Origin: an uncultured Nesterenkonia sp.
Lineage (GTDB): Bacteria; Actinomycetota; Actinomycetes; Actinomycetales; Micrococcaceae
Assembly (NCBI GenBank): GCA_947494195.1
Contig: CANLUC010000003.1
Span: forward strand, 310,001 to 374,000
Reading direction: 5' to 3'
DNA length: 64,000 nt
The notes under the pieces were generated by a model. It was not told where the DNA came from. It saw only the letters and a list, made by a program, of their open reading frames with translations, and searched no databases. The position numbers were made by a program, and so were the translations under genes. Shown piece after piece: positions 59,148 through 62,333 of this stretch (its first letter is position 1; every line of letters begins with the position of its first letter).

Positions 59148-60671
59148 TCAGTCGGCGGCAAAGCCGGTGTCGCGTCCGAGCATGTCCTGCTCGGTCTCCC
59201 GGCGGATGAGCACCTGGGAGTCACCGTTGTGCACGGCGACCACGGCTGGTCGAGTCAGGTAGTTGTAGTTGCTCGACAGCGAGTGGCAATACGCTCCGGT
59301 GGCGGGAACGGCAAGGAGATCGTCCCGGGCCGTCGCCGTCGGCAAGTATACGTTTCGCACCACGATGTCGCCGGACTCGCAGTGTTTGCCCACGATGCGA
59401 GACAGCGAGTGTTCGCCGGTCACCCGACGGCCTGCGAGCACGGCGGAATACTCGGCGTCATAGAGGACCCCGCGGGCGTTGTCGCTCATGCCGCCGTCCA
59501 CCGCGACATAGCGGCGTGAGGTGGTCGATCCGTCGGGCGCTTCGACCTGCACGTTCTTCTGCACGCCCACGCGGTAGAGGGTGACTCCGGCCGGGCCGAC
59601 GATGGCGCGACCGGGTTCGATCGAGATCCGCGGCACGCGGAGGTCTTCTGCGGCGCAGGCCTGCTTCACGGTGGCGGCCAGCGCCTGAGCGATCGCCTCG
59701 GGGTGCCGGGGGGCATCGGCTTCGGTGTAGGCGATGCCGTGGCCGCCGCCGAGATCCAGCTCGGGAAGTTCGATCCCGTAGGCGCTGCGCAGGCTTGCCA
59801 GGAAGCTGATCAGCTTGCTCGCCGCCAGTTCGAACCCGGCGGGCTCGAAGATCTGTGAGCCGATGTGGGCGTGGAGTCCGCGCAGTTCGATGCCGGGAAG
59901 CTCAAGTGCGCGGGTCGCAGCGGTCCAGGCCGGGGAGCCGAGATAGGGGTTGGTCTCCCCCGGCGCGGACGGGTGCGTCTCGGGCTCTTCCGGGTCGAGT
60001 GCCGGCGTCAGAGAAAGGCCGAACTTCTGGTCCTCGTGCGCGGTGGCGATGTACTCGTGGGTGGAGGCGTGGACTCCGGGGGTGAGTCGCAGCATCACGG
60101 GGGCACGCGTGCCGGCGGCGACGGCGAGGGCGGAGACGCGCTCGAGCTCGTCGAGCGAGTCCGCGATGATCCGTCCGATCCCGGCGTCGAGCGCGCGCTG
60201 GATCTCGGCGTCGGACTTGTTGTTTCCATGCAGCCCGATGTGCTGCGGAGGCACTCCCCCGGCCAGTGCGAGCGCCAGTTCGCCGCCGGAGGCAGTGTCC
60301 ACGCAGAGTCCCTCTTCGGTGGCCCAGCGTGCCACGTGGGTGCTCAGGAAGGCCTTGCCGGCGTAGAAGACGTCGACCTCCGTCTCGGGGGCGAAGGCCG
60401 CAGCGAAGGCCGCACGGAAACTGCGGGCGCGGGCGCGGAAGTCTGCCTCGGAGAGCACATAGAGCGGGGTGCCGTGCTGCTGGGCCAGGGTCTCGACGTC
60501 GGCCCCGCCGATGACCAGGCGCCCTTCGGCGTCGCGGTGCGTGTCCGCCGGGAACAGCGCTGCTTCGAGGTCATCGGTGTCCCGGCGAGGGCTCAGCCAG
60601 GCCGGGGCCAGCGGATGCTTGGGCAGGGGTGTGGTGGAGGTGGTGTCCGTGGAGGGCGGTTCAGGGGTGAT
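59148..60671 (-). CDS. lysA: Diaminopimelate decarboxylase, with no canonical start codon for its N-terminus
   Basis: PLP enzyme that makes lysine from meso-diaminopimelate. The PLP lysine is in FYAGKAF; further motifs are GLHGNNKS, the GGGHGIAYTE glycine loop and SIEPGRAIVGPAG. The only in-frame GTG (60458) begins VLSEADFRAR, cutting off about 70 residues with an actinobacterial LysA look (HPLAPAWLS, then EGRLVIGGADVETLAQQHGT). Upstream of it there is no ATG, GTG or TTG back to the argS stop, which is in the same frame. I annotate from an ATC at 60671 as the longest candidate (507 residues). Alternatives are a CTG at 60626, a +1 shift at CCC-TGA after a GTG at 60681, or a sequencing indel in that C run. 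Confidence 0.85.
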   Translation of the reverse strand: MTPEPPSTDTTSTTPLPKHPLAPAWLSPRRDTDDLEAALFPADTHRDAEGRLVIGGADVETLAQQHGTPLYVLSEADFRARARSFRAAFAAAFAPETEVDVFYAGKAFLSTHVARWATEEGLCVDTASGGELALALAGGVPPQHIGLHGNNKSDAEIQRALDAGIGRIIADSLDELERVSALAVAAGTRAPVMLRLTPGVHASTHEYIATAHEDQKFGLSLTPALDPEEPETHPSAPGETNPYLGSPAWTAATRALELPGIELRGLHAHIGSQIFEPAGFELAASKLISFLASLRSAYGIELPELDLGGGHGIAYTEADAPRHPEAIAQALAATVKQACAAEDLRVPRISIEPGRAIVGPAGVTLYRVGVQKNVQVEAPDGSTTSRRYVAVDGGMSDNARGVLYDAEYSAVLAGRRVTGEHSLSRIVGKHCESGDIVVRNVYLPTATARDDLLAVPATGAYCHSLSSNYNYLTRPAVVAVHNGDSQVLIRRETEQDMLGRDTGFAAD

Positions 60672-60677
60672 GGCGGC

Positions 60678-62333
60678 TCACATCCTTTCGGGTGCGGTGA
60701 CGCCGAGCAGCGCCAGACCGTTGCGCAGCACCTGTGCCGTGGCGTCGTTGAGCCAGAGCCGGGTGCGATTGAGGTCGGTGACAGGGTCCTGGACGCCGTC
60801 GGGGCTGACGCTGGGCGCGACGCGGCAGACGGCGTACCAGCCGTGATAGGCGCTAGCCAGTGACTCGAGGTAGCGGGCGACCCGGTGCGGTTCGCGCAGC
60901 TCCGCGGCGGAGGCGACCACGGAGGTGAAGCGGCCCAGCTGGGAGAGCAGCTCCTCCTCGGTCTCGTGGGTGAGCAGTCCGGCATCGAAGGATTCACGGT
61001 CCACTCCGGCGGCCTCGGCGTTGCGGGCCGCGTTGCGCGAGCGGGCGTGGGCGTATTGGACGTAGAACACCGGGTTGTCGTTGGTGCGTGACTGCAGCAG
61101 CTCGGGATCCACGTCGATCGGTGAATCGGCCGGGAAGCGGGCGAGCGTGTAGCGCAGCGCGTCGGTGCCCAGCCAGTTGATCAGGTCGCTGAGTTCGATG
61201 ATGTTGCCGGCGCGCTTGGAGAGCTTGGCGCCACGGATCGACATGAGCTGCCCGATCAGCACCTCGATGTTGCGCTGAGGATCGTCTCCGGCGCAGGCCG
61301 CGATGGCCTTGAGCCGGGAGACATAGCCGTGGTGGTCCGCCCCGAGGAGGTAGATCTTCTCGGTGAAGCCGCGCTCGCGCTTGGAGAGGTAGTAGGCGGC
61401 ATCAGCGGCGAAGTAGGTGGGCTCGCCGTCGGCCTTGAAGAGCACCCGGTCCTTGTCATCGCCGAAGTCTGAGGTGCGCAGCCAGACGGCGCCGTCGCGG
61501 TCCTCGATATGACCCTGCTCGCGCAGCGTCTCGATGGCGGTGGCGACCTTGCCGTCGGCATGCAGGGACTGCTCGGAGAAGAAGACGTCAAAGTGGACCC
61601 CGAAGGCTTCCAGGGTGTCCTTGATCTGTCCCATCTGCGCCTGATATCCCAGTTCCCGCACGATCGGCAGCGCTTCCTCGCGCGGCATGTCCTTGACGTC
61701 TGGGCGGGCGGCGAGGATCTCCTCGGCCAGCTCGATCACATAGGCGCCGGGGTAGCCGCCCTGCGGCACGTCTTCGCCGTGGATCCGGGAGAGCACCGAG
61801 TGGCCGAAGACGTTCATCTGGTTGCCGGCATCATTGATGTAGTACTCGTTGGCGACCTCGGCTCCCGAGGCGCGCAGCAGCCGGCCGATGGCATCGCCCA
61901 GGGCGGCCCAGCGGGTGTGCCCGATGTGCAGCGGCCCCGTCGGGTTCGCCGAGACGAACTCGATGTTGACCGTGCGCCCGGCCAGGGCATCGTTGTGCCC
62001 GAAGGTGTCCCCGGCCTCCACGATGGTGCGCGCCAGCAGACCCGCGGCGGCAGCCTCCACCGTGATGTTGATGAACCCGGGGCCGGCGATCTCGATGCGC
62101 TCCACGCCGGAGACCTGCTCGAGGCGTGCGGCGAGGATCTCGGCGAACTGGCGCGGGGCCATGCCGGCCTTCTTGGCCAGCTGCAGGGAGATCGCGGTGG
62201 ACCAGTCCCCGTGCTCGCGATTCTTGGGGCGTTCGACGACGACGGTCTCGGGGAGGTCGACGCTCAGCTCACCGGCTTCGACAGCTTCGGCGAGCACGCT
62301 CTTGACAACGGCGGAGAGTTCTTCAGGAGTCAC
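60678..62333 (-). CDS. argS: Arginyl-tRNA synthetase
   Basis: Class I synthetase charging tRNA-Arg. 551 residues with the N-terminal additional domain (MTPEELSAVVKSVLAEAVEA), the HIGH-type motif PTGPLHIGHTRW, the KMSKS-type motif GAKLSKRAGN and a C-terminal anticodon-binding helical domain. GTG start; TAGACT ends exactly six bases before it, with no Shine-Dalgarno, suggesting a leaderless transcript. First gene ahead of lysA, hom and the threonine genes; its stop (ATGTGA) abuts the problematic lysA start. Confidence 0.96.
   Translation of the reverse strand: MTPEELSAVVKSVLAEAVEAGELSVDLPETVVVERPKNREHGDWSTAISLQLAKKAGMAPRQFAEILAARLEQVSGVERIEIAGPGFINITVEAAAAGLLARTIVEAGDTFGHNDALAGRTVNIEFVSANPTGPLHIGHTRWAALGDAIGRLLRASGAEVANEYYINDAGNQMNVFGHSVLSRIHGEDVPQGGYPGAYVIELAEEILAARPDVKDMPREEALPIVRELGYQAQMGQIKDTLEAFGVHFDVFFSEQSLHADGKVATAIETLREQGHIEDRDGAVWLRTSDFGDDKDRVLFKADGEPTYFAADAAYYLSKRERGFTEKIYLLGADHHGYVSRLKAIAACAGDDPQRNIEVLIGQLMSIRGAKLSKRAGNIIELSDLINWLGTDALRYTLARFPADSPIDVDPELLQSRTNDNPVFYVQYAHARSRNAARNAEAAGVDRESFDAGLLTHETEEELLSQLGRFTSVVASAAELREPHRVARYLESLASAYHGWYAVCRVAPSVSPDGVQDPVTDLNRTRLWLNDATAQVLRNGLALLGVTAPERM

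Follow-up and report, generated by a model that had tools for sequence, protein, structure and literature searches.

Organization of the argS-lysA Junction

The window, i.e., the whole stretch of 64,000 nucleotides that was analyzed, derives from a 2.78 Mb draft genome of an uncultured Nesterenkonia sp., and the nearest named relative found was Nesterenkonia sp. Act20, whose LysA is 93% identical. The genes argS and lysA follow one another on the minus strand, and the features at their junction are as follows:

60678..62333, minus strand: argS, arginyl-tRNA synthetase; an open reading frame whose C-terminal 200 residues were matched in relatives, the gene name being taken from an earlier finding and assigned by eye
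60678..60689, minus strand: Shine-Dalgarno-like sequence GAAAGGATGTGA, formed by the three final codons of argS together with its stop, with one mismatch against the complement of the 16S 3' tail
60661..60681, minus strand: mini-ORF overlapping argS, GTG AGC CGC CAT CAC CCC TGA, on which the idea of a +1 slip is based; present in the window, its slip site not conserved
59148..60671, minus strand: lysA, diaminopimelate decarboxylase; 507 codons counted from the ATC, plus the stop
60669..60671, minus strand: ATC, the proposed lysA start codon; argS stop plus 6 nt, followed by ACN, in nine of nine clade genomes
60618..60671, minus strand: variable, Pro/Ser/Thr-rich N-terminal linker of LysA; counted from the ATC, it runs for 18 codons up to the conserved block, and it stays open in the same frame in nine of nine
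60456..60617, minus strand: conserved HPLAP...GTPLYV block of 54 codons, ungapped in nine species, its last codon being the first NTG
60456..60458, minus strand: GTG 60458, the first NTG in the lysA frame; encodes the conserved V of GTPLYV and is probably not a start

The 3' end of argS reads GAA AGG ATG TGA, with the TGA at 60680-60678, and the lysA frame is that of argS, continuing behind the TGA as GCC GCC ATC ACC CCT GAA. Between the argS stop and GTG 60458, no ATG, GTG or TTG was found in the lysA frame of the window. An earlier note on this DNA had described this absence as well as the continuity of the two frames, with correct coordinates and codons. The further elements that it listed were also found in the sequence, namely, a GTG at 60681 that overlaps the argS TGA and runs for six codons to CCC TGA, and a run of four C (CACCCCTGA). 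Three explanations had been offered for this arrangement: a programmed +1 frameshift, a rare start codon (ATC or CTG), or one extra C in the run.

The Segment Preceding the First NTG Codon Encodes LysA

Homology to a solved diaminopimelate decarboxylase, 2o0t (E 3.7e-119), covers nearly the whole length of LysA (query residues 38-222 and 248-500) and establishes its identity as this enzyme. With the ATC counted as residue 1 and GTG 60458 as residue 72, LysA aligns from residue 38 onward, beginning at residue 12 of 2o0t. Within the HPLAP...GTPLYV block, the pairwise differences over all pairs of the nine species, aligned without gaps, were 167, 124, and 576 at codon positions 1, 2, and 3, respectively. 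As the block evolves as coding sequence and aligns with solved LysA, the start of translation must precede it. The suggestion of the earlier note that the residues upstream of GTG 60458 belong to the real LysA is in agreement with these observations for all 54 codons of the block.

A start of LysA at GTG 60458, with the upstream block left untranslated, would have the merit of using the first NTG in the frame. It is nevertheless extremely unlikely, as the preceding block shows coding-type evolution and its residues align with solved LysA, and as the GTG itself encodes the conserved V of GTPLYV, so that a protein starting there would omit a conserved part of the enzyme. A gene caller limited to ATG, GTG, and TTG would truncate the conserved N-terminus in just this manner, beginning the window LysA 71 codons late.

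Conservation of the ATC Codon in Nine Genomes

The argS-lysA junction was readable in 29 of the 30 genomes of the genus, while G028 gave no lysA match. L082 is a duplicate of L001, and the junction of L002 is the same as that of L084; each was counted once. L110 comes from a genome (G015) that is 62% complete and matched lysA in pieces; it has the junction ATG ACT in another frame and was assigned to the ATG group. The lysA and infC matches of G015 (L110 and L141) were interrupted by frame changes or stops, probably owing to a low-quality assembly.

In nine genomes, ATC-ACN was found two codons after the argS TGA, within the shared pattern GAAAGGATGTGA NCC NNC ATC ACN, and the Thr codon behind the ATC varied at its third base (ACC, ACG, ACT, ACA). 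Invariant bases are not rare in this clade, as 42 of 110 fourfold sites were invariant over the last 200 argS codons of the nine genomes. The other 20 readable junctions of the genus carried an ATG (19) or a GTG (one, L100) within the same interval; a Thr codon came directly after the ATG in 11 of these 19 genomes. The two genes also stood in the same order and close together in the other members of the genus. In a tree of 34 rows, comprising 28 loci of the genus and six named loci from outside it (L110 and L111 were left out), the nine ATC genomes formed one branch with a support of 100/100, for which a single change is sufficient. A survey of NTG starts covered 111 loci, of which five were not judgeable (four of the 80 named loci, and L111), and scored an NTG as present wherever it lay in the open frame; among the 80 named loci, with the four not judgeable, only L002 (Act20) was without an NTG start.

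The distance from the ATC to the conserved block ranged from 16 to 40 codons, with seven different lengths, and was always open in the frame of the ATC (9/9). Seven of the nine clade members had no ATG, GTG, or TTG before the block, and L085 and L088 each had a single GTG late in the linker. In L086, L087, and L089, the ATC was the only codon among ATG, GTG, TTG, CTG, ATT, ATC, and ATA between the argS stop and HPLAP. CTG occurred in five of the nine linkers, no single CTG being common to all. The rare start codon of the earlier note is, therefore, strongly supported as far as the ATC is concerned (nine of nine genomes, fixed distance, sole candidate in three), whereas the CTG found no such backing. 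That lysA begins at some other linker codon, such as CTG or GTG, or that the species differ in the start they use, is improbable: the CTG of five linkers and the GTG of two might serve, and L085 and L088 could start at the latter, but of the codons of these kinds only the ATC is common to all nine, and three linkers lack any other candidate.

The linker GTG of L085, codon 29 after the argS stop, has GGAGG five bases upstream and is absent from the sister locus L108. It is possibly a second, newer start.

A programmed +1 frameshift would involve initiation at GTG 60681, translation of six codons, and entry into the lysA frame by slipping at CCC UGA, and it predicts the peptide HHPEPPSTDTTSTTPLPK in the window species. 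Programmed +1 frameshifting of the RF2 type occurs at a stop codon, and the window possesses the corresponding codon-stop geometry. This geometry is present exactly in the window and in L083, and in L084 and L087 the stop occupies the same position but follows a different codon. The slip site, however, is not conserved, as CCC TGA was found in only two of the nine clade members, with CTC TGA in one and TGC TGA in one, which argues against a mechanism of the RF2 type. In L085, L086, L088, L089, and L108, the frame of the overlapping GTG has no nearby stop, so that slipping at a stop could not take place there. Taken over the clade, frameshifting has hardly any probability as the route into lysA. 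The extra C proposed in the earlier note also fared poorly when the junction was compared in relatives for a run of three C: in the two nearest relatives, the stretch is as long as in the window (CACCCC in one, CACCTC in the other), L083 with the same run and L084 with a run of equal length, so that no indel error is indicated. Moreover, nine separate assemblies agree in the absence of an NTG before the conserved block (seven of them) or in having a single late GTG there (two).

Read-through of the argS UGA, giving an ArgS-LysA fusion, would be compatible with the common frame of the two genes, which is open from the TGA onward in all nine genomes, and with the use of TGA as the argS stop throughout the clade. 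It would leave ATC-ACN at a fixed distance unexplained, since a fusion has no need of the ATC, and TGA also ends argS in 16 of the 20 other members of the genus, which have starts of their own. Such a fusion is, on these grounds, very unlikely.

The linker behind the ATC was hard to align between subgroups of the clade, and inspection by eye of near relatives did not reveal clear purifying selection in it. It is rich in Pro, Ser, Thr, and Ala, with a repetitive look in L087 (GTSTGTSTATPSP), and its variation between 16 and 40 codons across related species gives it the look of a rapidly changing tail attached to an otherwise conserved enzyme.

Shine-Dalgarno-Like Sequence at the End of argS

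The 3' tail of 16S rRNA was found in 24 of the 30 genomes of the genus, but not in the window's own draft. The duplex energy of the Shine-Dalgarno-like sequence with this tail was -14.6 in all nine clade members. The 9 nt from AGGATG of GAAAGGATGTGA to the ATC represent a suitable spacing for a Shine-Dalgarno sequence. A strong sequence at the end of argS may have made the loss of the AUG tolerable.

A strengthening of the Shine-Dalgarno sequence to offset the AUC was also considered. The value of -14.6 compares with a mean of -9.7 in the 20 others (p 0.016, uncorrected for relatedness), but five ATG-start species reach -15.2 (5/20; the sister pair L093/L094, L090, L097, and L109), and the proposal was rejected. 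Because these relatives slightly exceed the clade, the strong Shine-Dalgarno-like sequence is not special to the genomes with AUC.

Initiation of infC in the Same Genus

The gene infC served as a control for initiation at ATC in this genus. All 30 genomes (L112-L141) showed AGGAG, 8 nt and then ATC-AGC-GA(A/G)-CCA. In 16 of them, no NTG separated an upstream in-frame stop from the ATC, and the first NTG downstream was located 11 to 58 codons into the gene. The other 14 genomes had some in-frame NTG further upstream and, taken alone, are no proof of an ATC start. Judged by this pattern, infC of the genus probably starts at ATC, and owing to it Nesterenkonia appears able to start translation at AUC. 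A caller restricted to NTG codons would misplace the infC start as well. In E. coli, infC has an AUU start with autocontrol, according to works cited in PMC9845219.

Proposed Initiation of lysA at AUC

It is very probable, from the comparison of these sequences, that lysA is translated from the AUC at 60671-60669, that this start arose once, and that it has been kept in nine Nesterenkonia species. An ancestral AUG would have changed to AUC a single time, in the common ancestor of one Nesterenkonia clade, whose members would have retained the AUC ever since. Ribosomes finishing argS would stop at the UGA six nucleotides upstream of the AUC, coupling lysA to argS; alternatively, fresh 30S subunits would bind the Shine-Dalgarno-like GAAAGGAUGUGA that overlaps the argS end. 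In either case, the AUC would be placed in the P site, the initiator tRNA (fMet) would start there, and the protein would begin with fMet-Thr-Pro-Glu. A start at AUC predicts the tryptic N-terminal peptide (M)TPEPPSTDTTSTTPLPK in the window species.

The AUC could also have a regulatory role. By sharing with infC a start that is disfavored by IF3, lysA might make both diaminopimelate consumption and lysine supply depend on free IF3, and thereby on the condition of the translation machinery, throughout the clade; we regard this as a tentative and rather doubtful idea. Initiation at AUC in vitro, as far as the available part of PMC10158994 describes it, was assayed with mismatched anticodons (UAU, AAU), for which higher IF3 meant a smaller fraction of full-length peptide, and the AUC/CAU pair is not covered there. 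IF3 may lower lysA output. An AUC start shared by a whole clade in a housekeeping enzyme, together with sister species that start at ATG, would make the choice between tolerated drift and regulation testable, and such a start could reveal an unusual tuning of a housekeeping gene, namely, the one for the last step of lysine synthesis.

Comparison With Known Systems and Occurrence in the Genome

Genes that start at AUN codons are a known kind, and lysA would resemble infC in having an AUN start behind a Shine-Dalgarno sequence. Unlike infC, it is a biosynthetic gene, its AUC was seen in just a single clade, and its proposed start lies directly behind the stop of another gene. To our knowledge, natural AUC starts have rarely been documented outside infC. 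When compared with the ordinary actinobacterial argS-lysA junction, order and tightness are the same, but the other members of the genus use ATG or GTG.

A reconstruction of 61,358 ancestral AUG starts recorded switches to GUG (363), UUG (113), CUG (2), and AUU (1) and none to AUC in the available text (PMC5622118). This reconstruction is taken to rest on annotated starts, which would hide cases of AUC. The essential L12ae gene of the archaeon Staphylothermus marinus has no valid start codon, and an ATC start was proposed for it from an alignment (PMC2678158). The likeness to lysA lies in the proposed ATC; L12ae is archaeal and concerns a single species, with no conservation described in the available part of that report. 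Among the matches listed in a search on non-AUG starts, Nesterenkonia, and argS-lysA, which included few subscription journals, there was no prior report for lysA, for the clade, or for the stop-adjacent setting; the term argS-lysA occurred in two Corynebacterium papers among these matches.

Similar genes were screened for by comparing 374 kb of the window's contig with 400 kb of the relative G012, which covered 273 non-overlapping coding-like genes; infC lies on another contig. At least 12 aligned codons preceded the first NTG in 89 of the 273 genes, and in seven of the 89, the changes there were dominated by third positions. Of these seven genes from the 374 kb, only lysA had a long stretch (55 codons) that a normal NTG start does not explain. 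In o504, o505, and o1547, the stretches were short (14-17 codons), and o990 and o1890 have a Shine-Dalgarno-like sequence ahead of the first NTG. In o1866 (rplS by eye), an ATG lies behind AAGGAG, with a conserved leader and a stop in G012.

Outside the window, the rplS-like gene (by eye) at G000:C3:240132-240684 (L173-L174) was observed to have a normal ATG with AAGGAG, preceded by about 160 bases of conserved leader, which we take to be, perhaps, an L19 leader.
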